Source: a virus. Taken from it: 22,881 nucleotides of DNA. Under the pieces are notes generated by a model. It saw only the letters and a list, made by a program, of their open reading frames with translations, searched no databases and had not been told where the DNA came from. Positions 1 to 13,053 of the stretch are shown in pieces. Position 1 is the stretch's first letter. Each line of letters starts with the position of its first letter. The translations under genes and the position numbers were made by a program. The stretch is taken from IMG/VR virus record IMGVR_UViG_3300021335_000097, positions 1 through 22,881 of that record; one strand, written 5' to 3'.

Positions 1-228
1 CCTGATACAAAGAAGACTAATAAAAGGTCTACATCTCCTAAGCCTAAGTTAGATCCACTAAAGGGTTGGTCAGATTCAAGACGTAAAGCACTTGGTTCTG
101 ATAAGATTGGTAAGGACGCAGGTGATGGTATGGTCTGGATCGTAATGGGTAACTCAAATGGTCTTACCAGAGTTAAACCAAGTGATCCAAGAGTAGCAGA
201 ACAGAAGAGGTTAAAGAAATTCTTATGA
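1..228 (+). CDS. Hypothetical protein, C-terminal part (gene enters from upstream)
   Basis: Reading frame 1 is open from the first base to a TGA at 226-228, giving the last 75 residues of a protein whose start lies outside the window. The visible part is basic and polar, with a Lys/Ser/Pro-rich stretch (residues 4-20) followed by a more compact piece containing GDGMVWIVMGNSNGLTRV and a Lys-rich end. I do not recognise the family. The stop overlaps the start of the next gene as ATGA (225-228), which fits translational coupling in a phage operon. That overlap and the continuous open frame support it being real coding sequence. No function can be assigned. Confidence 0.6.
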   Translation, partial: PDTKKTNKRSTSPKPKLDPLKGWSDSRRKALGSDKIGKDAGDGMVWIVMGNSNGLTRVKPSDPRVAEQKRLKKFL

Positions 229-512
229 TGAGACTAGAAGGAGATAAAGTCCTTGGTCCTCGTGGAGATGTTCTTGCTCAAAAGATTCGTGGTACTTGGC
301 ACACTAAAGAAGCTAAAGTCCTAGAATTTATTAAAGAGCAAGAAGCTCCTGCGAAGAAAAAGGCACCCAAGAAAAAAGCTAAAGTAGAAGAAGAGTTGGT
401 AATGGAACGTGCTCGTGATGAGAACGGGCACTTCATTGCTGATGATCCTGAGACTGAAGTAAATGAGGCTTGGGTAGTTAAAACTATCAAGAAGGTAACT
501 AAGAAGAAATGA
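225..512 (+). CDS. Small Lys/Ala-rich phage protein, function unknown
   Basis: A 95-residue protein with three visible parts. The N-terminus (1-38) is compact and contains LEGDKVLGPRGDVLAQKIRG. A Lys/Ala/Pro linker (39-55) resembles basic DNA-binding tails. The C-terminal part contains RDENGHFIADDPETEVNEAW, a sequence style I associate with small proteins near the structural genes of marine phages, and the protein ends in Lys residues. The start could be ATG 225 or the adjacent ATG 228. ATG 225 overlaps the upstream stop as ATGA, and the gene's own TGA overlaps the next start the same way (509-512), so three genes are probably translationally coupled. The basic linker suggests nucleic-acid contact, but that is only inference. 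Confidence 0.7.
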   Translation: MMRLEGDKVLGPRGDVLAQKIRGTWHTKEAKVLEFIKEQEAPAKKKAPKKKAKVEEELVMERARDENGHFIADDPETEVNEAWVVKTIKKVTKKK

Positions 513-868
513 CTCAGTATAGCATCGGCAAGCCAGCACGTAGGAAGTCTGTCTATGGTCACAACACTACCACAGCAGTAGAAGACGTGTATGTTTGCCC
601 TGCTAACTGTACAGCAGAAGTTACGTATATTCTTGTAGCTAATGGTGGTGGTAGCACTAATGATGTCACTATCCAGTGGTACATAGCAGCAGATGCTTAT
701 ACTTCACACTTCCTAAACGATAAGAGTTTAGCTGGTGGTGGCTATCACGAGTTCTCTACTATTGACCTTGTGTTACAGCCAGGTGATAAGATTCAGGTAG
801 TCCCTAATGCAGCAGGACACATTGATAGCATTGTCACTGTAACTGAGACCTTTGTGCCTATCGGGTAG
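509..868 (+). CDS. Small beta-rich virion protein (decoration or tail accessory)
   Basis: A 119-residue protein made almost entirely of alternating hydrophobic strands and Gly/Ser/Asn turns, as expected for a single beta-sandwich. There is no signal peptide or membrane segment. It shares a pattern with the 110-residue protein at 18361-18693: a VYxxP strand start, a Thr-rich strand, a Gly-Gly turn, then a DxIxV strand followed by a V-rich last strand. The two look like distant paralogues or at least the same fold. Such small beta-sandwich proteins in phages commonly decorate capsids or sit on tail fibres. The start overlaps the previous stop by four bases. The family role is inferred from composition and context, not from a catalytic motif. 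Confidence 0.7.
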   Translation: MTQYSIGKPARRKSVYGHNTTTAVEDVYVCPANCTAEVTYILVANGGGSTNDVTIQWYIAADAYTSHFLNDKSLAGGGYHEFSTIDLVLQPGDKIQVVPNAAGHIDSIVTVTETFVPIG

Positions 869-873
869 CGGGG

Positions 874-902
874 TTGCATTTTTTATAGTAGTGTGTTATA
901 AC
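874..902 (+). promoter_or_regulatory. Putative sigma70-type promoter for the DUF1127 gene
   Basis: TTGCAT at 874-879 and TATAAC at 897-902 are separated by 17 bases, the ideal sigma70 spacing. The -10 box matches five of six consensus positions; the -35 box matches only its TTG. Predicted transcription start is near 909, which would give a leader of about 58 bases. The -10 octamer TATAACTA is repeated at 911-918 and appears again in the capsid promoter at 11762-11769. The weak -35 limits confidence. Confidence 0.5.
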
Positions 903-974
903 TAACAACATATAACTAATCTCCATAAGGTCATAAGACCTGACTTAACAATATGGAGATACTACTATGAAAAA
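879..974 (+). promoter_or_regulatory. Structured mRNA leader burying the ribosome binding site and start codon
   Basis: Complementary segments here can form a three-way junction. Helix P1 pairs 879-892 with 961-974: 14 pairs including one G-U, and it contains the AUG at 967. Hairpin P2 pairs 895-900 with 911-916. Helix P3 pairs 919-927 with 952-960: nine perfect pairs, with the Shine-Dalgarno GGAG (955-958) bound to CUCC (921-924). Hairpin P4, inside P3, pairs 928-932 with 937-941 around an AUAA loop. P1 and P3 abut at 960/961 and could stack. RNA from the local promoter would contain only P3 and P4, while read-through RNA could form all four. This suggests translational control of the DUF1127 gene. 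The pairing is seen directly; the regulatory role is inference. Confidence 0.6.
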
Positions 975-1125
975 ATTCTTTAAAAGATTAATTGAAGCAA
1001 GACAAGCCCAAGCAAATGCTCGTATTGCTGAGATGCACCTCTGGAGAATGTCAGACAGAGAACTTAACGATCTAGGTATTGGTCGTGCTGATATCAGAAG
1101 AATCGTGAGAGAAGGTAAAGTCTAA
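967..1125 (+). CDS. DUF1127 (YjiS-like) small protein
   Basis: A 52-residue basic protein. The N-terminal half is an Arg/Lys-rich amphipathic helix (KKFFKRLIEARQAQANAR). The C-terminal half carries the DUF1127 signature, LxRMSDRELNDLGIGRADI in style, at about residues 25-43. DUF1127 proteins are abundant in Alphaproteobacteria, usually 45-55 residues long, and at least one from Rhodobacter (CcaF1) has been described as an RNA-binding protein affecting RNA maturation and turnover. A phage copy could act on host or phage RNA metabolism; that is inference. GGAG at 955-958 lies eight bases before the ATG but is buried in a nine-pair helix. The gene has its own putative promoter and noncoding flanks, unlike its tightly coupled neighbours, so it looks like a moron gene acquired from a host. 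Confidence 0.88.
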   Translation: MKKFFKRLIEARQAQANARIAEMHLWRMSDRELNDLGIGRADIRRIVREGKV

Positions 1126-1146
1126 TAAGTCTTTGGGAGGAGGCGA

Positions 1147-1602
1147 ATGGACCCTGTTACTATTATTTCAGGTGCAACAGTCGCCTTCAATGCCCTCAAG
1201 AAAGGGTTTGCTGTAGGTAAAGATCTACAAGACATGGGTAGCCAACTAACTAAGTGGGCAGGTCACATGTCTGATCTAGGTCAGGCTGAGAAACAAGTTA
1301 AGAACCCACCGTGGTGGAAGTCTTTAAGTGGTTCAGTAGAGGCCGAAAGTTTGGAAGTTTTTGCTGCGAAGCGTAAAGCAGAGTCCATGCGTAAAGAACT
1401 CAAGGACTATATAAGTTTCACGATGGGGCCATCAGCCTGGGATGAGCTAGTAGCAATCGAGGCTAAGATTCGTAAGCAAAAGAAAGAACAAGAGTATCGT
1501 AAAGCAGAACTACAAGAAGCAATAATTACTTGGGCTGTAACAGGTGTTCTTTTATTAATAGGTTTTGGTGCTCTTGGGTTTGTATTATATCTGGTGACAT
1601 GA
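1147..1602 (+). CDS. Tail-anchored membrane protein, function unknown
   Basis: A 151-residue protein with a strong Shine-Dalgarno (GGGAGGAGG, 1134-1142). Residues 1-25 form a mildly hydrophobic helix, the middle (about 30-125) is charged and helical with a Lys/Glu coiled-coil-like stretch near 100-122, and residues 126-151 are one transmembrane segment at the extreme C-terminus. Its position just before the terminase genes is where many marine phages carry a similar protein; I recall the sequence style but know no assigned function. Tail anchoring with a coiled coil could suit a holin or spanin-like lysis role, but i-spanins normally have an N-terminal membrane segment, so this is weak. Its stop overlaps the next start as ATGA (1599-1602). 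Confidence 0.75.
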   Translation: MDPVTIISGATVAFNALKKGFAVGKDLQDMGSQLTKWAGHMSDLGQAEKQVKNPPWWKSLSGSVEAESLEVFAAKRKAESMRKELKDYISFTMGPSAWDELVAIEAKIRKQKKEQEYRKAELQEAIITWAVTGVLLLIGFGALGFVLYLVT

Positions 1603-1745
1603 TACAGAAAGTAGGTAATAAGTACTACGCATACAATAAAAATGGAAAGATACTTATTATAACAAGCTATAAAAGAATAGCAGAGAATATTGACAGGAAA
1701 GCTAATGGCAAGAAATCTAACAGAAAAGCAGCAAAAGTTTCTTGA
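1599..1745 (+). CDS. Very small basic protein, possibly real
   Basis: A 48-residue frame starting at ATG 1599 through an ATGA overlap with the membrane protein gene. The first half (MIQKVGNKYYAYNKNGKI) resembles small phage proteins with a KxxNKxYxYNKxGK beta-hairpin, followed by a basic helix. The C-terminal 13 codons (1705-1745) overlap the start of the small terminase gene in another frame. Base composition at 1621-1680 is 15/60 G+C, lower than most neighbours. The coupled start and fold-like pattern argue for translation; the short length and overlap argue against. The longer upstream extension of this frame (from 1530) lies wholly within the preceding gene and is unlikely. Confidence 0.45.
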   Translation: MIQKVGNKYYAYNKNGKILIITSYKRIAENIDRKANGKKSNRKAAKVS

Positions 1746-2067
1746 TGTCCTCTTTGAAGAGGCAAAAGGAGATCCTGTGGTTGCTAAAAAACTTGCAGGG
1801 TATGCTGACGCTGTGTCTTCAACAAGTATTGTTAATGCCTTGACAGACGAGATTGCAGAGCTTACAAAGAAGTTCATAGCACAATCGTCTACTAAGGCTG
1901 CTTATACTATGTTTTCTGTTATGGCAGATCCAACTGACCTAGGTGTAAAAGAAAAGATGTTAGCAGCTAAAGACATTCTAGATCGTGCAGGATTCACTAA
2001 AACAGATAAAGTAGAAGTAAAAGCTTCAGAGCCTTTATTTATTCTACCTGCGAAAGAAGATGAGTAA
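1705..2067 (+). CDS. Terminase small subunit
   Basis: A 120-residue protein that opens with MARNLTEKQQKFLDVLFEE, the N-terminal helix typical of terminase small subunits, followed by a helical region with an AGYAD turn as in the family's DNA-binding HTH. It ends with a segment (about 75-120) rich in charged residues, including DILDRAGFTKTDKVEV, a style common in these proteins. Small subunits form ring oligomers that bind the packaging start site and stimulate the large subunit. I chose ATG 1705 because AGGAA at 1695-1699 precedes it at good spacing; a TTG at 1690 would overlap that site. The gene overlaps the next by eight bases and lies just before the large terminase, which supports the call. 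Confidence 0.82.
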   Translation: MARNLTEKQQKFLDVLFEEAKGDPVVAKKLAGYADAVSSTSIVNALTDEIAELTKKFIAQSSTKAAYTMFSVMADPTDLGVKEKMLAAKDILDRAGFTKTDKVEVKASEPLFILPAKEDE

Positions 2068-2581
2068 AAGAGCTTCAACTGCTGAACACCCAACCAAAGT
2101 AGACTGGCAGATACCACTAAGAGGGGAAAACGGAGAGTGGTATCCTGTTATAAGAGTAGGAAGACACGTACCATTTGGTTACAAACAGGATGAAGAAGAC
2201 GAAATGCTTCTGATTCCTATCCCTGAAGAACTAGAACTTTTTGAAAAAGCAAAGTTGTTTCTAAAAGAATACAGTGTTAGACAAGTAGCTAAGTGGCTGT
2301 CTGAACAATCTGGAAGAAACATCTCACATGTAGGGTTATATAAACGTGTCAGAATGGAAGAAAAAAGGCGAAGAGCCTCCTCGAACTACCGCAGGTATGC
2401 CCAAAAGTATAAAGAAGCGGCAAGGAAGAGCCAGAAGATCGAAGAAGAAAGACTTGGTGGCAAGCGCACCAGAAACCTCGCCACAGACGAAGAGTACATC
2501 GAACTCAGAGATGGAGAGTGTTGCCCCTTCTGCGGTCAAACAAAAGGTAATATTCGAGCCAAACCCAGGTCCACAGACTAG
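2060..2581 (+). CDS. Helix-turn-helix (resolvase-like) protein adjacent to terminase
   Basis: A 173-residue protein. Residues 29-60 contain a VGRHVPFGY strand-turn and LIPIPEELELFEKA. Residues 70-98 form a HTH of the type found at the end of serine-recombinase-like proteins (YSVRQVAKWL, then NISHVGLYKRV). There is no recombinase catalytic domain, so it is probably a DNA-binding factor, perhaps helping terminase recognise DNA. The tail (about 100-145) is a basic helix, followed by CCPFCG, a single CxxC knuckle. The start overlaps the small terminase stop. From about residue 112 on the same DNA is also read as the large terminase N-terminus, so this C-terminus may be dual-coding. The recombinase-like HTH assignment is from family knowledge; the role is inferred. 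Confidence 0.75.
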   Translation: MSKRASTAEHPTKVDWQIPLRGENGEWYPVIRVGRHVPFGYKQDEEDEMLLIPIPEELELFEKAKLFLKEYSVRQVAKWLSEQSGRNISHVGLYKRVRMEEKRRRASSNYRRYAQKYKEAARKSQKIEEERLGGKRTRNLATDEEYIELRDGECCPFCGQTKGNIRAKPRSTD

Positions 2582-3932
2582 GTTCTTAGCAGCTACAGAA
2601 CAAGAGGTACTTTATGGTGGGGCAGCAGGAGGTGGAAAAAGCTATTCGTTGGTTGCAGACCCAGTTAGGTACTTTGCAAATCCACATGCACGAATGCTAC
2701 TTGTTCGTAGGTCTACAGAAGAGCTTAGAGAACTTATATCAGTAAGTAAGCAGCTTTATCCTCAGGCCATACCAGGCATCAAGTTCATGGAAAGAGATAA
2801 GACTTGGGTTGCTCCAAATGGTGCTACACTCTGGATGTCTTACCTTGACAGAGATGACGATGTTATGAGATACCAAGGCCAAGCCTTTAACTGGATTGGG
2901 TTTGACGAATTAACACAGTGGCCTACTCCTTATGCTTGGAACTACATGAGGTCACGTCTACGTGCTACAAAAGCTTCAGGACTGCCACTCTATATGAGGG
3001 CTACATCAAACCCAGGCGGTCCAGGGCATCAGTGGGTAAAGAAACACTTCATTGATCCCAACACACCTAACAAACCATTCTGGGCTACAGACGAAAATGG
3101 TGAAACCATCTGCTGGCCTAAGGGTCACAGTCGAGAGGGTGAGCCTCTATTTAAACGTAAGTTTATTCCTGCTACTCTCTTTGACAACCCTTACCTATCT
3201 GAGGATGGAATGTATGAAGCCAACCTTCTATCTCTGCCTGAACATCAGCGAAGACAGTTGCTTGAAGGTGACTGGGACATTAACGAAGGAGCAGCTTTCC
3301 CAGAGTTTAACAGACGCATCCATGTTGTTGAACCATTCGATATACCAAGTAACTGGGTTCGTTTCAGAGCTTGTGATTATGGGTATGGGTCTTATACTGG
3401 TGTAGTCTGGTTCGCAGTTGTTCCAGGATCTGAACAGCTAATAGTCTACAGAGAGCTATACGTATCTAAGGTAATTGCTACTGATTTGGCTGACATGATC
3501 CTGGACATTGAACAAGAGGAGAAGATCAGGTATGGAGTTCTTGACTCTTCTCTTTGGCATAATCGTGGTGATACTGGCCCTAGTCTTGCAGAACAGATGA
3601 TTGTTAAAGGCTGTCGATGGAGACCTGCAGATAGATCTAAAGGGTCTCGTGTAGCAGGTAAGAACGAAATACACAGACGTTTACAGATAGACGAGTTTAC
3701 AGAGGAACCAAGACTTGTTATATTTTCTAATTGCACTAGTCTTATATCTCAGCTTCCCTCTATTCCTCTAGACAAAAGAAACCCTGAGGATGTAGACACT
3801 AACTCAGAAGATCACTTATATGACGCTTTAAGGTATGGGGTTATGACAAGACCAAGAAGTAGTTTATTTGACTTCGATCCTGCAGCACAACGAACAGGAT
3901 TTCAAGCAACAGATCCCACCTTTGGATACTAA
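2397..3932 (+). CDS. Terminase large subunit (packaging ATPase and nuclease)
   Basis: This is the motor that pumps DNA into the procapsid and cuts concatemers. Counting from ATG 2397 (511 residues), Walker A is GGAAGGGKS at 74-82 and Walker B is WIGFDELT at 166-173. The C-terminal RNase H-like nuclease shows acidic residues at D327 (ACDYGYG), D383 (YGVLDSS) and D476 (HLYDALRYG). The frame opens earlier, so the start is uncertain: GTG 2346, ATG 2397 and ATG 2511 are all possible and none has a good Shine-Dalgarno. The ATPase domain begins near 2545, so even the 2511 start gives a complete enzyme. The first 30-60 residues are basic and disordered, and they overlap the HTH gene in another frame. 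Confidence 0.95.
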   Translation: MPKSIKKRQGRARRSKKKDLVASAPETSPQTKSTSNSEMESVAPSAVKQKVIFEPNPGPQTRFLAATEQEVLYGGAAGGGKSYSLVADPVRYFANPHARMLLVRRSTEELRELISVSKQLYPQAIPGIKFMERDKTWVAPNGATLWMSYLDRDDDVMRYQGQAFNWIGFDELTQWPTPYAWNYMRSRLRATKASGLPLYMRATSNPGGPGHQWVKKHFIDPNTPNKPFWATDENGETICWPKGHSREGEPLFKRKFIPATLFDNPYLSEDGMYEANLLSLPEHQRRQLLEGDWDINEGAAFPEFNRRIHVVEPFDIPSNWVRFRACDYGYGSYTGVVWFAVVPGSEQLIVYRELYVSKVIATDLADMILDIEQEEKIRYGVLDSSLWHNRGDTGPSLAEQMIVKGCRWRPADRSKGSRVAGKNEIHRRLQIDEFTEEPRLVIFSNCTSLISQLPSIPLDKRNPEDVDTNSEDHLYDALRYGVMTRPRSSLFDFDPAAQRTGFQATDPTFGY

Positions 3933-3941
3933 GGAAATACA

Positions 3942-6065
3942 ATGGAAGAAGATGACATCTTTGAATCAGAAGAACTTTATATGGATGACAATGAGTCTTC
4001 CTATGTAGAAGATATAAATGACGGAGATACAGTCTTTGATGAAAAAGTAGGAACGATTACTGGCTTTGTAGAGGAAAAGTTCTCTAAAGCTGAGAAGGCT
4101 CGTTACTCTGATGAACAAAGATGGATTAAAGCATATCAAAACTACAGAGGTGTGTACGGACCAGACGTTCAGTTTACTAGTACTGAGAAGTCTCGTGTTT
4201 TTGTTAAAGTCACCAAGACTAAAGTTCTAGCTGCTTACAGTCAGATCACAGATGTTTTATTTGGTAGCAACAAGTTTCCTATTTCTATTAACCCAACTAT
4301 TCTTCCTGATGGTGTTGAGGACACAGTTAACTTTGAAACAAACCCTGAGATTCAAAAGGCTGACGAAAAGACTCCCTTTACTTTAGAGGCTTTGCAACCT
4401 GGTGAGACTATCATTGATCTTAGAGAAAGATTAGCTGGTCTCTCAAATAAACTAGAACCAGTAGAAGATAAGCTTGAAGAAGGTCCAGGGACTACACCAA
4501 CAAAAGCTACTTTCCATCCTGCTATGGTTGCAGCTAAGAAGATGGAAAAGAAAATCCATGATCAATTAGAGGAATCAAATGCTCGTAAGCAATTACGTAT
4601 TGCAGCATTTGAGACTGCACTCTTTGGCACAGGCGTTATGAAAGGCCCATTTGCTTATGATAAAGAGTACCCTTCTTGGTCAGAGGATGGAGAGTACAGT
4701 CCCTTAATTAAGACTGTGCCTCAAACATCTAGTGTTAGTATCTGGAACTTTTATCCTGACCCTGATGCTAACAACATGGACGAAGCTGAGTACGTAATTG
4801 AAAGACATAAGATGTCTCGTTCTCAGATGAGATCATTAAAGAATAGACCTTTCTTTAGAGCTAACACTATTGATACTGCCATTGAGATGGGCGAGTCCTA
4901 CACCAAAGAGTGGTGGGAACAGGTCATGGAAGACGCAGACCAAGAAACTAAATCAGAAAGATTTAACGTTCTTGAGTTCTGGGGTTATGTAGATACTTCT
5001 ATTCTAGAAGAGCATGACGTAGATATTCCAAAAGAGTTGAAAGACAGAGATCAAGTTTCTGTAAACATATGGATTTGTAATGGTCAGGTTCTACGTCTTG
5101 TAATGAACCCATTCACTCCTGCAATCCTTCCATACTATGCTGTCCCATACGAAGTAAATCCTTACTCATTCTTTGGTATAGGTATTGCAGAGAATATGGA
5201 TGATACTCAGACTCTAATGAATGGGTTTATGCGCATGAGTGTAGATAATGCTGCACTTTCGGGTAGTTTGCTTATCGAAGTGGATGAAACAAATCTAGCT
5301 CCTGGTCAAGACCTATCCATTTACCCAGGCAAGGTCTTCCGTAGAATGGGGGGAGCACCAGGACAGGCCATCTTCGGCACCAAGTTCCCTAACGTATCTA
5401 ATGAGAACATGCAGATGTTCGACAAGGCAAGGGTACTGGCAGATGAATCAACTGGCTTCCCGTCTTTTGCGCATGGTCAGACTGGCATTTCGGGTGTGGG
5501 TCGGACTGCAAGTGGTATTAGTATGCTTATGTCTGCTGCTAATGGTAGCATTCGTACTGTTGTTAAGAATATTGATGACTACTTACTTGGTCCTCTAGGT
5601 AAAGCATTCTTTAACTTTAACATGCAGTTTGACTACGACTCAGAAATTAAAGGTGACCTAGAAGTTAAAGCTGAAGGTACTGAATCTCTAATGGCTAACG
5701 AAGTACGTAGCCAACGCCTAATGCAATTTCTTGGTGTTGTACAGAATCCAGTACTTGCACCCTTCGCAAAAATGGATTATATTATACGTGAGATTGCTAA
5801 GTCTATGGATCTTGATCCTGATAAACTTACTAACTCAATGTCAGATGCAGCAATTCAAGCTGAGATCCTAAAGAAGTTCCAAGCAGAAAACCCACCTCAA
5901 GTAGACCCTAACGCACCACAGCAGGGTGCACCTCAAGGACAGCCTCCTGCAGGTGTTCAAGTTCAGGACACACAAGGCTCTGGGGGTGGTCAGATGGGAA
6001 CGGGTACAGCACCTACCCCAGGTGAGCCAGGGTTCTCAGGTAACACAGGTGAAGGTCAAGGATGA
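3942..6065 (+). CDS. Portal protein (head-tail connector, podovirus type)
   Basis: A 707-residue protein directly after the large terminase, the normal portal position. The N-terminus (1-35) is acidic; a helical region follows with RWIKAYQNYRGVYG, then KVTKTKVLAAYSQITDVLFG, a pattern typical of large podovirus portals. The middle is mixed alpha/beta with a stem-like SVSIWNFYPDPDA segment. About residues 400-620 include the helical crown region, and the last 70 residues are Pro/Gln/Gly-rich and disordered. Length is near that of the P22 and N4 portals and longer than T7's. It would form a dodecameric ring at one capsid vertex that serves as the DNA channel and terminase dock. AAGGA lies just before the ATG at 3942. 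The stop overlaps the next start as ATGA. Confidence 0.9.
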   Translation: MEEDDIFESEELYMDDNESSYVEDINDGDTVFDEKVGTITGFVEEKFSKAEKARYSDEQRWIKAYQNYRGVYGPDVQFTSTEKSRVFVKVTKTKVLAAYSQITDVLFGSNKFPISINPTILPDGVEDTVNFETNPEIQKADEKTPFTLEALQPGETIIDLRERLAGLSNKLEPVEDKLEEGPGTTPTKATFHPAMVAAKKMEKKIHDQLEESNARKQLRIAAFETALFGTGVMKGPFAYDKEYPSWSEDGEYSPLIKTVPQTSSVSIWNFYPDPDANNMDEAEYVIERHKMSRSQMRSLKNRPFFRANTIDTAIEMGESYTKEWWEQVMEDADQETKSERFNVLEFWGYVDTSILEEHDVDIPKELKDRDQVSVNIWICNGQVLRLVMNPFTPAILPYYAVPYEVNPYSFFGIGIAENMDDTQTLMNGFMRMSVDNAALSGSLLIEVDETNLAPGQDLSIYPGKVFRRMGGAPGQAIFGTKFPNVSNENMQMFDKARVLADESTGFPSFAHGQTGISGVGRTASGISMLMSAANGSIRTVVKNIDDYLLGPLGKAFFNFNMQFDYDSEIKGDLEVKAEGTESLMANEVRSQRLMQFLGVVQNPVLAPFAKMDYIIREIAKSMDLDPDKLTNSMSDAAIQAEILKKFQAENPPQVDPNAPQQGAPQGQPPAGVQVQDTQGSGGGQMGTGTAPTPGEPGFSGNTGEGQG

Positions 6066-6250
6066 GCCTCAAACTACTCGTAAACAACAAAGACATCTGG
6101 GAATCATTCGTAGAAGAGATGGACACTAAGATTGAACGTGTTCATGTCCAGATGGAACAAGCTACAACACCAGAAGACTTCTATAGGTTGCAGGGACATG
6201 TAGCATGTCTTCGTAGATTAAAAAGACTTAGGGACGAAGTAAATGGCTAA
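6062..6250 (+). CDS. Small helical protein following the portal
   Basis: A 62-residue, all-helical protein: NNKDIWESFVEEMDTKIERV forms the first helix, and YRLQGHVACLRRLKRLRDEV the second. Proteins of this length and pattern commonly sit just after podovirus portal genes; I recall the pattern but know no proven role. The two amphipathic helices would make a hairpin or coiled-coil dimer. The start is coupled to the portal stop (ATGA at 6062-6065) and the end overlaps the start of the next gene by eight bases (6243-6250), which strongly supports real translation. There are no catalytic or membrane features. It could be a structural clamp or assembly factor, which is speculation. Confidence 0.8.
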   Translation: MSLKLLVNNKDIWESFVEEMDTKIERVHVQMEQATTPEDFYRLQGHVACLRRLKRLRDEVNG

Positions 6251-9200
6251 AAAACCAGAACCATCTAAAGAAAATCCTACAGATTTTTTGGTTGAACAAA
6301 ATAGGGGTTTAAACCCTCGTGGTATTGCCTATGATCGTGAAATTAAAGATCAAGGACAAGCAGCAAAAGATGTTGGTCAGTTTGCTTTAGAAAGTCTTCC
6401 TGGTGTAGGTACAGCATTTACTGTTGCAGACATTGAAGACGAACTTAAGAAAGAAGAACCTAACTACGTCAAGATTGGTATGCTCGTAGGAACAGAGGCT
6501 ATTGGTCTGATCCCTGGTCTTGGTACTGCAGCTAAGAACATGATACGTAAAGGTGCTGACATGGCTCGTCAAACAGACGAAGTTATGGATGTAGCAAGTA
6601 GTATCCCTAAGGTATCACGTAAGAGCACACCATCATATACTGATGCAGAACTTTTAGAAGCAGACGAAATTATTAGTGAGTGGGGTAAAGGAAATCTTAC
6701 TAACCCAGAACTACGTAGTAAACTTCGTGATAAAGGGTTTAATGTAGAAACAAAAAGAATATCTCCAAAAATGACAGGGGATGATCTAGAGGTTGTTGGT
6801 CCTGATGGTAATATAGTTCGTTGGAAAGATATGCCTCGTGGGACAGACAGAAAACCTCAGATGTCTAATGAAGACTACGATATGCGTATGGCTGCATTAG
6901 ATGAAATAGATGATATAAAAGAGTGGCAAAAAGCTGCTAAAAAAGAAATAGAAACAGGTCGTGTAGCTGACCCTACTATTAAAACACCTGAACTAGAGGA
7001 GTCTACAAGACTTTTACTAGAAAATAAAATTACTAGGGAAGAACATCTAGCCAACGTTGACAAGTATAAACCTGTTAATGCTTGGGATGCTCTACCTCGT
7101 GAGCCTAGTGATAAAGCTGTTGTATATGCTTTAAATAGTGGTCAGAGAAAAGATGGTTTCTTTGTATTAGATAATGCTGCTGAAATGGGCGTTAATAAAT
7201 CATCTTTAAAAATAGGTGATCTATTTAATGGAAGATTGGACATACCTGCGTATAATTATCATGATACATGGATTGTTACAGGGTCTTCTAAAAATGCTGA
7301 AAAAGGAAGACATTATGCGAAAGCAGTTCATTATCGTTCTGGAGAAGGTGAGCCTGTAAAGTTTATAGCATCTGAAAAAACTAGTGAAAGAATTGGTACT
7401 GGTGAGATTGATAAAACACCTTATGCTACTGTTCAAGGATACGTAGAAGATTTAGACGTTAATGCTATTCGTGCTAAAGCAGCAGAATATTTAAATGATC
7501 CTGAGTGGACACAAGTAGGATTTGACCCACGCAGACAAGGTGGCTTCTATGTACGTGCAGGTGAAAATAAACATGTTCCAGTACGTGAGGCAACAGAGGT
7601 TATACAGATCGGGCCTTTGATACTAGCTAAAAATGCCAAATTAGATTTCGAGTATGAAGGTTATAGTGAAGGTGGTGTAGCAATGAACAAACAAATGGAA
7701 ATGGCCTTTATGCAAGAAGGTGGAGTACCTGATAATACTGTAGGAGTTGATCCTGTATCAGGTAATGACATTCCTGTTGGTTCTACTGCTGAAGAAGTTC
7801 GAGATGATATTCCTGCTATGCTGTCTGAGGGTGAGTACGTTGTCCCTGCAGACGTAGTTAAATACCACGGCCTAGCCCTATTTGAAGCTCTACGTAACCA
7901 AGCTAAGTTTGGACTACGTGAAATGGCAGAAGATGGTCGTATTGGTGGAGAGCCTATCGAAGAAGGTATGGAAGAAGAGTTGACTGCAGAAGATCAACAG
8001 CTTCTACAAGAAATTATGTCAATGGAAGATGAGGATGTAGTTAAGGCTGCGTATGGTACTTTCATTCCTGGTAATACTTCTACTACTGTTCCTTCTACCC
8101 AAGTACAAATGCCAACGTCAGGTCAAACACCTGCAAGTACACAGCAAGTACAACCTGCTACAACACAGCAAGATCCTTCAGGGGTCTACGGAATTGTTAC
8201 AGGATCTGGACAACCAGTTACTTCTTCAACACCCCTCGTTAATCAACAGCCTGTAGTTCAGGGTGTAGTTGGTACTACCCCAGTTACAGGTGATAGTACA
8301 ACAACTCCTGGGACTACACAGACAGGTATGGTCACTAAGAAGTATGTCGCACCAGACTGTAGAAGAATTGATGTTCTAACTCTTAATGGTAAAATTATTT
8401 CTTCTACCCCTGCAGACTTTGATGTGTTTGTTGAAGCTACTGAAGATAACCTAAAAAGATTTAATTGTATTACTGATGATGAAGAAGTTAAGGTAGATGA
8501 TACAACTACTGACACAACTCTTACAGGTGGTGAGGATGATGGTGGTAATGAGCCAGATATTAAAACAACTTCTGATCCAAAGTTTGATTTAAGTACTGAT
8601 AAAGGGTCTAGAGATGCTGCAGATTACTTCAAAGAAAAAAGTGGAGTTAGTGTTGTAGACCCATTTAAAGCTGCACAAGATGCACTTAATAATGCTCTTA
8701 ACGCTGATACAATGAAAGGTGCAGGTGCTTTAGCAGGACTAATATTGGGACCAGTTGGAACACTTGGTGCTGGTGTTATTAATGCTGGTTCTCAGATTGA
8801 TGCTCTTTCAACAGCATACGCAAATAAAAGTATGGCTGATTACTTAGGAAAGACAGACGTATCTAATAGTATTCAAAAGGCTATTGATGAGTTTCTAGGA
8901 AAAGCCCCTGGCATCGTTAAATTTGCTAATAAAAGTTCTGATCTTGGTAAAAAGAAAATGGAGTACGCTCTTCTTTCTGCGCAGAGTGTCAACGCACCAG
9001 ATGATATGGCACTTACTGAAGACAGATTTGGATCATCGGAAGCATTCAATAGTGCAATGAATGAAGTTGCTACTGCTGGTATGGTTTATAACCCTTCAGA
9101 AAAAGTATATGAAAGAACTACAGAGACTGTTCAAGTTCCTACTACAGGAGGTGGATCAGTCACCGTTGGGGCAGGAACACAGGCATCAACAGCTTCTGCT

Positions 9201-9818
9201 GCAACAGTCGATAGAGACACAGGAAGAGTTGTGTTTACACCAGGAGAAAAAACAGTTAGACCTGTTCTTAGACCACCTAATCTTACGTCTGGAAGTGGAG
9301 GAGATGACAGTAGCTCCGCACCAGTGGGAGTTGTCGGAAACAACGACACAGGTTCTAATGATTTTCTTCAAAGTGTTGCTAACTTCTTTACACCGAATGA
9401 CGGAAAAGAATATGTAGATGGTAAGCTTGTCAGTACAAGTAGCAATGACGACAACAATGATAGTCCTTCAAGTTCTGAAAGTTCTGGCTGCTGCTTCATT
9501 ATGCTAGAGGCTCGTTATGGTAACGGAACTATGGATGAAGTAGTACGTAGATACCGTGATGAATATATGACTGATCGTAATCGTAGAGGTTACTACAAGA
9601 CTGCTGAAGTACTTGTACCTCTCATGCGTAAATCAAAAGTATTTAAGTGGGTTGTTACTAAAACATTTGCTGATCCACTCGTATCTTATGGTAAATACTA
9701 CTACGGTGAAAACAAACATGGTGTTATTTTTACACCAGTTAAAAACTTTTGGATGAAACTCTTTGATGTTGTAGGGGGGAACACAGAGTTTATTAGAGAG
9801 AATGGTGAAGTTGTCTAA
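6243..9818 (+). CDS. Giant composite virion protein with CFI-type C-terminal domain
   Basis: A 1191-residue protein. Residues 45-105 contain Gly-rich hydrophobic helices (LESLPGVGTAF, then VGTEAIGLIPGLGTAAKNMI), possibly membrane-active. Residues about 290-475 hold an unfamiliar globular part ending in FDPRRQGGFYVRAG and EVIQIGPLILAKNAKL, a motif style I associate with phage polyvalent proteins. Residues 485-560 carry the MAFMQEGGVPDNT to EGEYVVPADVV module common in marine phage virion proteins. A long Thr/Gln/Asp-rich disordered region spans about 610-800. A second Gly/Ala-rich hydrophobic stretch follows near 825-870 and another disordered linker near 975-1075. The C-terminus (1081-1191) starts with SGCCFIMLEARYGNG and resembles the CFI-box type of C-terminal domain. 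Its place between portal and scaffold fits an internal or ejected virion protein. Function is inferred. Confidence 0.75.
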   Translation: MAKKPEPSKENPTDFLVEQNRGLNPRGIAYDREIKDQGQAAKDVGQFALESLPGVGTAFTVADIEDELKKEEPNYVKIGMLVGTEAIGLIPGLGTAAKNMIRKGADMARQTDEVMDVASSIPKVSRKSTPSYTDAELLEADEIISEWGKGNLTNPELRSKLRDKGFNVETKRISPKMTGDDLEVVGPDGNIVRWKDMPRGTDRKPQMSNEDYDMRMAALDEIDDIKEWQKAAKKEIETGRVADPTIKTPELEESTRLLLENKITREEHLANVDKYKPVNAWDALPREPSDKAVVYALNSGQRKDGFFVLDNAAEMGVNKSSLKIGDLFNGRLDIPAYNYHDTWIVTGSSKNAEKGRHYAKAVHYRSGEGEPVKFIASEKTSERIGTGEIDKTPYATVQGYVEDLDVNAIRAKAAEYLNDPEWTQVGFDPRRQGGFYVRAGENKHVPVREATEVIQIGPLILAKNAKLDFEYEGYSEGGVAMNKQMEMAFMQEGGVPDNTVGVDPVSGNDIPVGSTAEEVRDDIPAMLSEGEYVVPADVVKYHGLALFEALRNQAKFGLREMAEDGRIGGEPIEEGMEEELTAEDQQLLQEIMSMEDEDVVKAAYGTFIPGNTSTTVPSTQVQMPTSGQTPASTQQVQPATTQQDPSGVYGIVTGSGQPVTSSTPLVNQQPVVQGVVGTTPVTGDSTTTPGTTQTGMVTKKYVAPDCRRIDVLTLNGKIISSTPADFDVFVEATEDNLKRFNCITDDEEVKVDDTTTDTTLTGGEDDGGNEPDIKTTSDPKFDLSTDKGSRDAADYFKEKSGVSVVDPFKAAQDALNNALNADTMKGAGALAGLILGPVGTLGAGVINAGSQIDALSTAYANKSMADYLGKTDVSNSIQKAIDEFLGKAPGIVKFANKSSDLGKKKMEYALLSAQSVNAPDDMALTEDRFGSSEAFNSAMNEVATAGMVYNPSEKVYERTTETVQVPTTGGGSVTVGAGTQASTASAATVDRDTGRVVFTPGEKTVRPVLRPPNLTSGSGGDDSSSAPVGVVGNNDTGSNDFLQSVANFFTPNDGKEYVDGKLVSTSSNDDNNDSPSSSESSGCCFIMLEARYGNGTMDEVVRRYRDEYMTDRNRRGYYKTAEVLVPLMRKSKVFKWVVTKTFADPLVSYGKYYYGENKHGVIFTPVKNFWMKLFDVVGGNTEFIRENGEVV

Positions 9819-10491
9819 ACAACCCTACGAAAGTAAAGATGTGGTAGAAGTCTACGAAGAAAGATATATCCACCACCCCTTACAAGCAGAAGATATAAAC
9901 TTTGAAATAAAAACTATTGAAGGTTTATTAAACTCAGAAGATAAATGGTGTGATGTAGCCTGTGGTACTGCCCATCATTTAAGAAAAGCAAAAGGATCTT
10001 TTGAAAGGTATGGTGTTGATCGTTCACATTTAATGATTAATCAACACATTGAAGATACAGACTACAAAGTTAATTATTTTATTGAAGACTTACTTTATTT
10101 TAATCCTGGTACTTCTTTTAATTTAGTTACTAACTTTTGGTTTGGGTACTCTCATCAAGAAACTCTTAATGATGTTTTAAAGTTTTTTGAAAAGATGATA
10201 GATCTTACCTCTGAAAATGGTACTATTATTCTTTCTGTACATAACCACTGGAAGTTATTTAATCGTATCCCAAGATTAACAACAGACGTAGACAGTCAAT
10301 TTAGACTTGATGCATTACAGTGGTCTTATGTAGAGCCTAGTACAAATGACGTTTATAAATGTATTTCTCCTCATAAAGAATTAATTATAGAAACTTTTAG
10401 ACCACACTTTGAACAGTATGATCTAATAGAGTACCCAAGGATTTCTGCAAAAGAGTTACTTATTTTAAAAGGTAAAAAAAGATGCAACTAG
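9802..10491 (+). CDS. SAM-dependent methyltransferase, AT-rich
   Basis: A 229-residue class I methyltransferase-like protein. Motif I is WCDVACGTAHHL at 49-60, in the place of the usual Asp-x-Gly-Cys-Gly loop, with GVDRS at 71-75 as the acidic second strand. FNLVTNFWFGYSH at 106-118 is motif IV-like, and NGTIILSVHNH follows as the next strand. There is no DNA-methylase DPPY motif, so DNA is not an obvious substrate; small molecules, proteins or glycans are possible. The gene overlaps the giant virion protein gene by 17 bases, and ATG 9802 or GTG 9805 could start it. Bases 10021-10140 are 30/120 G+C against about 40-45 percent in sampled stretches of the portal and capsid genes, suggesting separate acquisition. 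It sits inside the late structural operon. Confidence 0.8.
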   Translation: MVKLSKQPYESKDVVEVYEERYIHHPLQAEDINFEIKTIEGLLNSEDKWCDVACGTAHHLRKAKGSFERYGVDRSHLMINQHIEDTDYKVNYFIEDLLYFNPGTSFNLVTNFWFGYSHQETLNDVLKFFEKMIDLTSENGTIILSVHNHWKLFNRIPRLTTDVDSQFRLDALQWSYVEPSTNDVYKCISPHKELIIETFRPHFEQYDLIEYPRISAKELLILKGKKRCN

Positions 10492-10709
10492 AAGAATATA
10501 AAAATGTATTGAAAACGAGGTATGATGCTCTTCCTGATGAAGAAAAAACTCTTATTGGTGAGCTTTCTCAAATGCCAGTTGGTGCTGTCCTTTATAAAGT
10601 ACTAGGGCCAGAGTTAACTGGTGCAGCTTCAGGTCAAGAAGAAACACCTCAGGAACAACCCCCTCAAGAAGAGATTCAACCAAGGCGTATGGGTTTGGGT
10701 TCTCGTTAA
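10482..10709 (+). CDS. Small phage protein with Gln/Pro-rich tail
   Basis: A 75-residue protein. The N-terminal 45 residues are helical (LEEYKNVLKTRYDALPDEEK, then LSQMPVGAVLYKVLGPEL). The rest is a Gln/Pro/Glu linker ending in RRMGLGSR. Short proteins with this layout and an RRxGLGxR-type end occur just before the scaffold gene in related marine phages, as far as I recall; the role is unknown. The start overlaps the methyltransferase end by ten bases. It may be a scaffold or portal partner that binds through the helical part, which is inference from position only. Confidence 0.72.
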   Translation: MQLEEYKNVLKTRYDALPDEEKTLIGELSQMPVGAVLYKVLGPELTGAASGQEETPQEQPPQEEIQPRRMGLGSR

Positions 10710-10742
10710 CCCTAGACATACTCCAAATAAATATAAGGCTAC

Positions 10743-10757
10743 CCAGCAGGATGCTGG
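10743..10757 (+). other. Short hairpin before the scaffold gene
   Basis: CCAGCA at 10743-10748 and TGCTGG at 10752-10757 are perfect inverted repeats around a three-base loop. No T-run follows, so it is not a simple terminator. It lies in the 69-base gap between two late genes, upstream of the scaffold ribosome binding site, and could be an RNA processing or stability element. Confidence 0.4.
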
Positions 10758-10778
10758 CCCCAACATAAGGAAAAAGAT

Positions 10779-11735
10779 ATGCCTGAAATGATGACAATGC
10801 AATCACCTAAGAACGCAGGTTTTGTAGATCGTGGTTTTAACCATGCAGAACGTAAGCGTAAAATGGAAGAAGAAGAAAGAGAAATTGCTAGACTAGAGGC
10901 AGAGGCTCGTGGCGAAGAATATGTTGAAGAAAGTGAACCCAGTGGCGAAGATACTGAGGACACCCAGGTACAAGCCACAAGTAATACCCAACAAGAAGAA
11001 CAATCCACCCAGGAAGGGGAAACACAAGAAGACGATAGCACAGCAGGACTAAGTGCTGAAGAGAAATCTTTTAAGAAACGCTACGGTGACTTACGTAGGC
11101 ACATGCAAGAAAAAGAGAAAGAGTGGAACGAAAAGATTGAAGCTCTTGAAAAGCGTAAACAAAAAGAGAGTATTGTACCTCCTAAGTCTGAAGAGGACAT
11201 TGAGGCTTGGGCTAAAGAATACCCAGACGTAGCAGGTATTGTAGAGCAAATTGCTTCTCAGAAAGCAAAAGAAATGTTCAGCAAAGCTGAGTCTAGACTA
11301 CAAGAACTAGATGATGCTCACAATGAAGCTCTACGAATGAAAGCAGAGAATGTTATTCGTAAGTCTCATGATGACTTTGATGAACTCAGATCTTCAGATG
11401 AATTTCACAACTGGGCAGAAGCTCAACCTAAATGGGTAAAGGATGCACTTTATGAAAATATGGATGATCCTGCTTCTGTTATTCGTGTAATTGATCTATA
11501 CAAAGTAGACAACAATATGACACCAACAGCTAAAAAGAATACTAAGAAAGCTGCAGCGTCTAGTGTTGTTAAAGGAACTCGTACTTCTATTGACACTAAA
11601 GGTGTATCAGGGCAAATCAAAGAATCTGATGTAGCTAAGATGTCAGCCAAGGAGTTTGAGAAACGTCAGGATGATATCTCAGAAGCAATGAGAACTGGGA
11701 AATTTATCTATGATGTGTCTGGTGCAGCCAGATAA
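10779..11735 (+). CDS. Scaffolding protein
   Basis: A 318-residue, highly charged, helical protein immediately before the capsid gene, the usual scaffold position. Residues about 20-45 are Glu/Arg helix, 50-85 are an acidic Gln/Thr/Glu-rich disordered region, and 90-135 form a Lys/Glu coiled coil (KSFKKRYGDLRRHMQEKEKE). A helical region with DIEAWAKEYPDVAGIVEQIA follows, and the C-terminus is basic and helical (KEFEKRQDDISEAMRTGKF), like the coat-binding end of other scaffolds. It would guide coat assembly into a procapsid and then leave. The ATG at 10779 is preceded by AAGGA at good spacing. No catalytic motif is expected or seen. Confidence rests on composition and position. Confidence 0.82.
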   Translation: MPEMMTMQSPKNAGFVDRGFNHAERKRKMEEEEREIARLEAEARGEEYVEESEPSGEDTEDTQVQATSNTQQEEQSTQEGETQEDDSTAGLSAEEKSFKKRYGDLRRHMQEKEKEWNEKIEALEKRKQKESIVPPKSEEDIEAWAKEYPDVAGIVEQIASQKAKEMFSKAESRLQELDDAHNEALRMKAENVIRKSHDDFDELRSSDEFHNWAEAQPKWVKDALYENMDDPASVIRVIDLYKVDNNMTPTAKKNTKKAAASSVVKGTRTSIDTKGVSGQIKESDVAKMSAKEFEKRQDDISEAMRTGKFIYDVSGAAR

Positions 11736-11757
11736 AGTGTTGACACTTAAGAAGTGT
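11736..11757 (+). promoter_or_regulatory. Operator-like repeated half-sites on the capsid promoter
   Basis: AGTGT (11736-11740) and ACACT (11743-11747) form an inverted repeat around TG. ACACTT (11743-11748) and AAGTGT (11752-11757) form a second one around AAG. The three half-sites overlap the -35 box and part of the spacer, exactly where a regulator would control RNA polymerase. No matching regulator is visible in the window. Confidence 0.4.
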
Positions 11758-11767
11758 TCAATATAAC
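11740..11767 (+). promoter_or_regulatory. Near-consensus sigma70 promoter for the capsid gene
   Basis: TTGACA at 11740-11745 is a perfect -35 box. TATAAC at 11762-11767 matches the -10 box at five of six positions, with a 16-base spacer. Predicted start is near 11774, giving a leader of about 206 bases before the capsid ATG at 11980. The promoter implies host RNA polymerase can transcribe the capsid gene independently of upstream late genes. Confidence 0.7.
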
Positions 11768-11979
11768 TACACGTATCTAAGTAAAGCCTCCTTTTATGGA
11801 CTACCTTTACAGATACTTTTTCACGATAAAAGTCTAAACTACAAAGAACTACCTGTTCAAGTATAGGCCCAGTAAGTATCTGGTTGCGCAACTGGATACT
11901 ATCTGCACCCTAGAAAACGATCAGCCTCTTTCAGGTGTTTAGCTTTCTTTTAAAGCCAAATATCATGGAGGATTTAACT
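11768..11979 (+). promoter_or_regulatory. Structured noncoding leader of the capsid mRNA
   Basis: This is the largest noncoding stretch in the window. It holds four hairpins: 11781-11786 with 11805-11810; 11815-11820 with 11828-11833; 11875-11885 with 11890-11900 (eleven pairs including two G-U, GCGC loop); and 11942-11946 with 11952-11956. None is followed by a T-run. A CCTCC at 11787-11791, in the loop of the first hairpin, is complementary to the capsid Shine-Dalgarno GGAGG at 11967-11971, and TAAA at 11782-11785 extends the match with TTTA at 11973-11976. Competing folds could therefore switch capsid translation or stabilise the message. The pairings are visible; the role is inferred. Confidence 0.5.
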
Positions 11980-13053
11980 ATGGCTTTTGCATCCGCTTCA
12001 GGTTATACCAACCTGCCAAATGGGAACTTTTCCCCAGTCATCTACTCAAAAAAAGTGCAGCTTGCGTTCAGGAAGAGCACAGTTGTAGGTGACATCACGA
12101 ACTCCGAATATTTCGGGGAGATCGCAAACCAAGGTGACACAGTGAAAATTATGAAGGAACCTGAGATTTCAGTTTCTGCATACACTCGTGGCACAACCAT
12201 CGCAGCGCAAGATTTATCAGATGACGATTTTTCATTGGTCGTTGATAAAGCTAACTACTTCGCTTTCAAGATGGATGATATCGAAGAGGCACACAGCCAC
12301 ATCGACTTCATGAACCTTGCTACCAACCGTGCAGCTTACCGTCTTGCTGATCAGCATGACCAAGAAGTTCTAGGTTACTTGTCAGGTTATGCACAGTCTT
12401 CATTGCACAGCAATGCTGACACTGTTAACACAACAGTTAACGGTACAAAAGCAAACACATCTGCAGGTTCAGATGAATTGCTTGCAGCAAACAAGCTAAA
12501 CAAAGGTGACTTTGGTAACATCACTACTTCAGGTGCTGATGACCATTCGATCCCTGTTGCAGCACGTTTGCCAGGTGCAACTGCACTACCAACAGATTAC
12601 GTTTCACCAACTATGTTGGTTGCTCGTATGGGTCGTCTACTTGATCAACAGCAAGTTGACAAAGATGGTCGTTGGATCGTAATTGATCCTGTCATGATGG
12701 AAATCTTGATGGACGAAGATTCACGTTTCCTACAATCTGATTGGGGTGCTTCAGGTGGCCTACGTAACGGTCTAGTCATCAACAACTGGAATGGTTTCAG
12801 AGTTTACTCTTCTTCAAACCTACCAGCAGTTGGTACTGGTGCTGCTACAACAGGTACAGCAAACCAAAACACTAACTATGGTGTTATCGTTGCAGGTCAT
12901 GATTCTGCTGTCGCAACTGCGGAGCAAATCAACAAGACTGAAACATACCGTGATCCAGATTCATTCGCTGACATTGTCCGTGGTATGCATCTTTACGGTA
13001 GAAAAATCCTACGCCCAGAGGCGTTGGTTACAGCTAAGTACAACTTGGCGTAA
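11980..13053 (+). CDS. Major capsid protein
   Basis: A 357-residue coat protein. The N-terminus (MAFASASGYTNLPNGNFSPV) and the following YFGEIANQGDTVKIMKEPEI are typical of marine phage capsid proteins, and the HK97-like fold is expected for the family. Other recognisable parts are DDIEEAHSHIDFMNLATNRA (an E-loop/spine style helix), GRWIVIDPVMMEILMDEDSR, and a C-terminal TYRDPDSFADIVRGMHLYGRK. I start it at ATG 11980 because GGAGG (11967-11971) sits eight bases upstream; the frame opens earlier at GTG 11935, but that reads through the leader and ribosome site. Bases 12061-12120 are 50 percent G+C with many C-ending codons, consistent with very high expression. It lies after the scaffold, behind its own promoter. 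Confidence 0.92.
   Translation: MAFASASGYTNLPNGNFSPVIYSKKVQLAFRKSTVVGDITNSEYFGEIANQGDTVKIMKEPEISVSAYTRGTTIAAQDLSDDDFSLVVDKANYFAFKMDDIEEAHSHIDFMNLATNRAAYRLADQHDQEVLGYLSGYAQSSLHSNADTVNTTVNGTKANTSAGSDELLAANKLNKGDFGNITTSGADDHSIPVAARLPGATALPTDYVSPTMLVARMGRLLDQQQVDKDGRWIVIDPVMMEILMDEDSRFLQSDWGASGGLRNGLVINNWNGFRVYSSSNLPAVGTGAATTGTANQNTNYGVIVAGHDSAVATAEQINKTETYRDPDSFADIVRGMHLYGRKILRPEALVTAKYNLA

Follow-up and report, generated by a model that had tools for sequence, protein, structure and literature searches.

A possible start-site-dependent translational lock on a DUF1127 gene of HMO-2011-type roseophages

Roseobacter phages of the HMO-2011 type carry a small DUF1127 gene whose leader folds into a hairpin that includes the Shine-Dalgarno (SD) sequence. 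We propose that this leader is a translational lock of the kind found at T4 e, soc and I-TevI, closed or open depending on where transcription starts; the start sites are predicted, and we give this reading a probability of roughly 0.58. Read-through RNA from the upstream genes, or RNA begun at about position 909, would contain both arms of the hairpin, with the SD paired and DUF1127 silent. RNA from a promoter inside the hairpin (predicted start 923-925) would lack most of the 5′ arm and leave the ribosome site open, and the choice of start site would then be a choice of whether the DUF1127 protein is made. The embedded promoter would be switched on by an activator at a box at 867-878, plausibly late in infection. 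Computation gives the identity of the gene, the SD-pairing hairpin and its compensatory evolution, the position of the -10 element and the fixed spacing of the box.

The window (the whole stretch of DNA that was analysed) is 22,881 nt long and covers positions 1-22,881 of IMG/VR record IMGVR_UViG_3300021335_000097. Its relevant features are:

867-878, + strand: box AGCGGGGTTGCA, conserved among the leaders (consensus AACGGGKWTGCA), which overlaps the preceding gene's stop codon and is a candidate activator site
874-902, + strand: upstream promoter copy, TTGCAT (874-879), 17 nt, TATAAC (897-902); predicted start about 909
911-916, + strand: second -10 copy TATAAC, directly against the hairpin; its RNA is predicted to start at 923-925, within the 5′ arm
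919-927, + strand: 5′ arm of the SD-occluding stem, ATCTCCATA (from folds and the covariation table)
928-941, + strand: inner stem-loop AGGTC-ATAA-GACCT (from folds); other short hairpins stand here in relatives
952-960, + strand: 3′ arm of the stem, TATGGAGAT, with the SD GGAG at 955-958 (from the SD core pairing probability)
967-1125, + strand: DUF1127 gene, 52 aa, ATG start, Pfam PF06568
1147-1602, + strand: next gene, PHROG 32327 (unknown function), followed by the terminase genes, with the portal gene further on

The gene, its relatives and its place in the genome

The open reading frame at 967-1125 encodes MKKFFKRLIEARQAQANARIAEMHLWRMSDRELNDLGIGRADIRRIVREGKV, a protein that is arginine-rich as judged by eye. 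The earlier note had taken it for a 52-residue DUF1127 protein, and Pfam bears this out: residues 11-44 match PF06568 with E=7.2e-8 and 32.5 bits against a gathering cut-off of 23.3. The product also matches PHROG 26566 (E=6.8e-9), whose function is unknown. An AlphaFold2 model, for which the alignment held the window and IMG/VR sequences only, has three helices (residues 2-27, 30-35 and 40-49; mean pLDDT 79.8), and a search of the PDB returned no convincing structural neighbour (best E=5). PF06568 was matched by all 19 of 19 diverse phage members of the family, and ten further phage proteins match it too. Three of the phage proteins (L346, L347 and L355) also show a weak similarity of DUF1127 to SAM-like Pfam domains (SAM_TNK E=2.6e-4, below the cut-off). 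Searches for the nearest cellular homologue gave short or weak matches only, so that no host donor can be named.

Carriage of DUF1127 by phages, which the earlier note had put forward as a matter for database searches, turned out to be widespread. When complete genomes were searched with a profile, all 11 Roseobacter HMO-2011-type phages (CRP-1, -2, -3, -9, -13, -207, -212, -235, -345, -603 and -738) proved to carry a single copy each, and five relatives with other hosts (HMO-2011, HTVC033P, HTVC115P, phiM6 and a Manatee Spring phage) none. Direct tblastn reached six CRP phages and Sinorhizobium phage Phosso, a consensus query returned 36 records (17 from Roseobacter phages), and IMG/VR holds more than 200 contigs with the gene (at least 208 relatives). 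Pfam confirmed DUF1127 in CRP-207, -212, -13, -3, -235 and -6, SIO1, CRP-403, phiM12 and OC. The gene is also present in roseophages unrelated to the HMO-2011-type group, namely the Cobavirus-type phages SIO1, P12053L, ICBM1 and CRP-5, CRP-6, and the autographivirus CRP-403; here it follows MazG, lies before or near ribonucleotide reductase (RNR) and in most cases overlaps its neighbours. In the HMO-2011-type genomes inspected it lies upstream of the terminase genes. The reading frame, whose loss in related phages the earlier note had also considered, is kept, and purifying selection acts on the DUF1127 core (median dN/dS of 0.17 for unsaturated pairs).

Most HMO-2011-type copies are annotated “hypothetical protein”, one is annotated as DUF1127, and the CRP-13 copy was missed altogether. 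The unannotated genes are at 1498-1656 of L345 in CRP-13 and, between MazG and RNR, at 1150-1329 of L350 in roseophage SIO1. A literature search, which did not extend to subscription papers, found no account of a phage DUF1127 gene, and the main texts of PMC6918029, PMC8528129 and PMC9038755 mention neither DUF1127 nor promoters.

By its terminase and portal genes and its gene order, the window is assigned to the HMO-2011-type podoviruses (roseophages), close to CRP-9; CRP-9 covers 60% of window positions 1-12000 at 85% identity, and the two TerL proteins are 93% identical. Most neighbouring genes overlap or nearly touch, and the gap upstream of the DUF1127 gene is 98 nt (869-966). The noncoding flanks described in the earlier note are therefore found on the upstream side; downstream, only 21 nt separate the gene from the next open reading frame, whose SD GGGAGGAGG (1135-1143) is strong and exposed (pairing only 0.06). 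No terminator-like site was found on the + strand in positions 1-3000 of the window, and the DUF1127 gene is the head of the packaging gene block and not a free-standing moron. The promoter of its own that the label “moron” would imply is predicted and conserved, but given the lack of a downstream terminator and the position at the head of the packaging block the label itself is doubtful.

A hairpin that pairs the Shine-Dalgarno sequence

The leader had been described as regulated-looking, and its fold agrees with that impression: the segment 905-985 folds at -16.8 kcal/mol with z=-4.67, and 0 of 200 shuffles folded as well. Among the leaders of relatives the median fold z is -3.65. (Fold energies and opening costs are throughout thermodynamic predictions made with ViennaRNA defaults; since a fixed 50-nt fold window clips the 5′ arm in some leaders and makes the SD appear falsely open, longer windows were used.) The SD core of the window has a pairing probability of 1.0 at both 37 °C and 20 °C, and hairpin pairing of the SD recurs in almost every one of more than 80 distinct phage leaders. 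For 84 phage leaders the median SD pairing probability is 0.998 and the median cost of opening the SD is 8.1 kcal/mol, against 0.39 and 0.6 kcal/mol in a control set of 81 other genes from three such phages (Mann-Whitney p=8e-23, which is not a strict probability because the leaders are related). Among rhizobial chromosomal DUF1127 leaders, only 2 of 66 have SD pairing above 0.8. The SD is thus more deeply buried than in either the control genes or the rhizobial DUF1127 genes, and the lock would belong to the phage form of the gene.

The stem bears signs of selection for pairing. Among 76 leaders there are 44 distinct arm pairs, and the same stem positions exchange T-A, A-T, G-C and C-G (at offset +5, T-A 30, A-T 18 and G-C 18). 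Relatives with differing arms keep the pairing, as in CTACTCCT/AGGAGTAG, GTCTCTGTAAG/CTTATGGAGAC and ATAACTATCTC/GAGATAGTTAT. Since their divergence in sequence and length precludes a single alignment, and with it a covariance model, the leaders were compared by swapping arms: across 17 leader classes, cognate arms pair at -11.2 kcal/mol and swapped arms at -7.7 kcal/mol (permutation p=5e-5). With related leaders such p-values overstate independence, and counts at the level of the 17 classes are safer, although the classes share promoter ancestry.

Two familiar types of leader were considered and set aside. No known riboswitch or Rfam RNA was found in the window. An RNA thermometer was rejected: the stem is closed already at 37 °C and is costlier to open at 20 °C, and the marine hosts live below 37 °C. 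Outside the HMO-2011-type group, the phiM12 leader (L354) may pair its SD as well (probability 0.75), and the OC leader (L355) may form a hairpin, seen when the fold window is longer but not when it is shorter; both lack the embedded hexamer described below.

Promoter copies and a box at constant distance

Two copies of TATAAC, 14 nt apart, lie in the window leader. The first (897-902) fits the start near 909 proposed in the earlier note, and its surroundings (AGCGGGGTTGCAT...TATAAC) are conserved in the close (main-group) relatives, so that the promoter ascribed to the gene is both predicted and conserved. The second (911-916), which keeps a constant spacing in relatives, predicts instead a start at about 923-925, and the position of the start is in this respect no longer the one first proposed. 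The two predictions have different consequences for the hairpin. RNA from about 909 would carry it complete, with an SD-opening cost of 9.2 kcal/mol, whereas starts at 923-925 would remove much of the 5′ arm and lower the cost to 2.4-1.7 kcal/mol. If transcription began at 921, 2-3 nt before the predicted position, most of the stem would stay closed (6.9 kcal/mol).

This arrangement recurs throughout the group. All 81 HMO-2011-type leaders have a TAWAAY hexamer abutting or inside the hairpin from which the predicted start would free the SD; that start falls a median of 6 nt inside the 5′ partner and is associated with an opening cost of 0.6 kcal/mol, versus 7.3 kcal/mol for longer RNA. At class level a freeing hexamer is found in 16 of 17 classes against 2.5 expected from shuffles, and among 81 control leaders only 8 contain one anywhere in the matching stretch. 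Between classes the distance from embedded hexamer to SD varies with hairpin size, over a range of 23 to 51 nt, which indicates that the hexamer follows the 5′ arm. In CRP-235 and CRP-738 it sits between the two arms.

The embedded -10 also stands at a nearly fixed distance from the upstream box. The box AACGGGKWTGCA lies 42-43 nt before it in 43 of 43 leaders with two -10 copies and 42-45 nt before it in 26 of 27 leaders with a single copy (the exception is a leader for which another hexamer was taken); four leaders with a variant box were missed by the box pattern. This spacing holds between leaders with wholly unlike hairpins, whether or not they have the upstream copy. The strict box occurs once each in the window, in CRP-9, in CRP-1 and in the greater part of the CRP-345 genome that was searched.

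The two copies differ in what accompanies them. The upstream one has a -35 (TTGCAW at 17 nt) with a mean of 3.5 of 6 matches, and part of its TTGCAT in the window falls within the box. The embedded copy has no recognisable -35 (mean 2.3 of 6 matches against a background of 2.6), an extended -10 TG is present in only 18 of 81 leaders, and some copies read TAAAAC. Since the embedded copy is found in all leaders at constant box spacing and the first copy is absent from about a third, the embedded copy looks like the common promoter element; the first copy as the only promoter was rejected on the same grounds. Given the lack of a -35 and a box at fixed distance, the promoter is probably activator-driven, and the box at 867-878 looks like the activator site. 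Palindromes occupy the -35 position just upstream of the embedded -10 in some relatives and are possible regulator sites: CACCTAATTAGGTG in CRP-212 (L344), GCACCTA..TAGGTGC in CRP-3 (L346) and GGTACTAAGTTACC in CRP-207 (L343).

From the hairpin and the promoter geometry together we infer the actual start sites, the silence of the longer RNA, the late timing, the activator and the target of the protein. Several observations count against the lock. The upstream copy looks like the stronger promoter in the main group, and its RNA would be locked. The embedded promoter, with no -35 and seldom an extended -10, may be weak. In the window a start at 921 would be enough to keep the stem largely closed, and a promoter near the start of a gene is expected anyway.

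Competing accounts and known systems

The most serious alternative is leader regulation of the conventional sort, acting on the RNA from about 909. Translation would be closed by default, and either a trans-acting factor of the phage or the host (protein, sRNA or RNase III) would open it or the DUF1127 protein would close it further by autoregulation; the second TATAAC would be a promoter remnant. The better -35 of the upstream copy, whose transcript carries the full hairpin, would suit this account, as would the report that the cellular DUF1127 protein CcaF1 of Rhodobacter binds RNA (PMC12501420). Against it, the third or so of leaders that lack the upstream copy keep both hairpin and embedded -10, no loop or bulge sequence is common to all classes, and the tracking of the 5′ arm by the -10 is left unexplained. 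Leader types also swap between protein types (L197/L198 versus L190/L193/L220), which makes protein-specific recognition, and with it autoregulation by sequence-specific DUF1127 binding, unlikely. We regard the account as a whole as unlikely.

Hairpins at the 5′ end stabilise mRNAs in other bacteria, and the stem-loop here would stand at or near the 5′ end of a message that enters the packaging genes. It could therefore shield a long packaging and structural mRNA from decay, with SD pairing a by-product of location. A stabiliser could do without the SD, but almost all classes have it in the stem; moreover, with starts at the usual spacing of 7-9 nt, the 5′ arm would be truncated in most leaders (median opening cost 0.2-0.6 kcal/mol) and the hairpin destroyed. 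We consider this improbable. The chances are slimmer still that the inverted repeat works as DNA, namely as an operator that overlaps the promoter and binds a dimeric regulator, with no RNA structure involved. The 5′ arm does overlap the -10 and start region, where a repressor would act, but the arm sequences of related phages are almost wholly different, the distance between arms varies and the SD is always within the 3′ arm. In addition, the outer stem contains G-U pairs in 42 leaders, and since an RNA hairpin tolerates such pairs and a DNA palindrome does not, they argue for RNA. Equally slight is the prospect of an ordinary accessory gene whose leader has no regulatory role and folds by chance in an A+T-rich intergenic stretch, for although SD pairing above 0.8 arises by chance in 12 of 81 control genes, a chance fold is largely contradicted by covariation (the compensatory changes and the swap test) and by z values of -4.67 in the window and -3.65 (median) in relatives.

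The start-site-dependent lock has close parallels in T4. Hairpins of the SD-hiding kind are found at T4 e, soc, 49, I-TevI and segB and at Aeh1 mobE, and that of I-TevI is removed through the choice of a late start site (PMC2988022, PMC3014915). As in the T4 late genes, the SD would be sequestered on long upstream transcripts, and the putative promoter is placed so that its own transcript would lose the 5′ part of the hairpin. There are also differences: T4 late promoters depend on gp55, whereas HMO-2011-type leaders have a host-type TATAAC/TATAAT together with the conserved upstream box, and the arrangement is found in an unrelated group of podoviruses, on a DUF1127 gene and conserved over 17 leader classes, with start sites that are predicted only. 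The proposed likeness is one of mechanism, short of proven membership. If confirmed, it would place a T4-style start-site translational lock outside the T4-like phages, in many differently built hairpins, and would give the HMO-2011-type phages, which are abundant, a candidate promoter box.

Cellular DUF1127 genes offer a second set of comparisons. Sinorhizobium meliloti duf1127-1 is likewise controlled by its mRNA leader, there by transcription attenuation through a translated upstream ORF with C-rich codons (PMC12218461), whereas the phage leader pairs the SD directly. Attenuation of this type was rejected for the phage: there is no usable uORF start codon in the window between 909 and 951 and no leader terminator, and no upstream ORF is shared among relatives, which sets the phage leader apart from the attenuator. 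The Rhodobacter sphaeroides locus of CcaF1 and the CcsR sRNAs also places a DUF1127 protein in a Rhodobacteraceae context, but no CcsR-like sRNA cluster was recognised downstream of the phage gene. The small DUF1127 proteins of Agrobacterium tumefaciens and YjiS of E. coli and Salmonella have the same domain and size class; unlike the phage gene, theirs are cellular and chromosomal, with PhoR and SsrA as reported partners.

The DUF1127 proteins are common among the Alphaproteobacteria, and whether they act by binding RNA or sensor kinases is disputed. PhoR is reported as a kinase partner, as is SsrA for YjiS (PMC12501420, PMC11707872). DUF1127 proteins of distant species are interchangeable in A. 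tumefaciens (PMC12501420), and in the phosphate control of that species CcaF1 can stand in for the native proteins (PMC12501420, PMC11707872). By analogy the phage protein most likely acts on host regulation as its cellular counterparts do, by binding RNA, a sensor kinase (PhoR, for example) or both. Its sequence holds nothing that decides between the two, and kinase interference and RNA binding appear to have similar odds; the takeover of host RNA metabolism suggested in the earlier note is one candidate role. Retention in all 11 genomes checked, purifying selection and the proposed hairpin lock suggest that the phage gains only from a well-timed DUF1127. More tentatively, and we hold this to be doubtful, an activator-dependent late promoter (AACGGGKWTGCA, 42-45 nt, TAWAAY) and the SD hairpin might form a phage-wide unit that times DUF1127 to one stage of infection in marine Roseobacter phages, where the protein would reprogram host phosphate or RNA control and would be harmful if made earlier. 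CRP-1 and CRP-9 have been isolated and offer a tractable system for DUF1127 function.

A different pairing of promoter and hairpin lies elsewhere in the window, ahead of the coat gene. A strong promoter (TTGACA, 16 nt, TATAAC) within 11740-11825 is directly followed by a terminator-like hairpin at about 11773-11822 with a CCTCC loop and a T run (z=-3.05). A comparable layout, with CCTCCC, CCTC and CCCC, recurs in CRP-9, CRP-1 and CRP-345. The hairpin could possibly give rise to a phage RNA of about 50 nt with an anti-SD loop, or act as an attenuator. The coat gene itself probably starts at ATG 11980 (MAFASASGYTNL), with the SD GGAGG at 11968-11972, where the mechanical listing gave GTG 11935, and its SD is likewise fully paired in the prediction.
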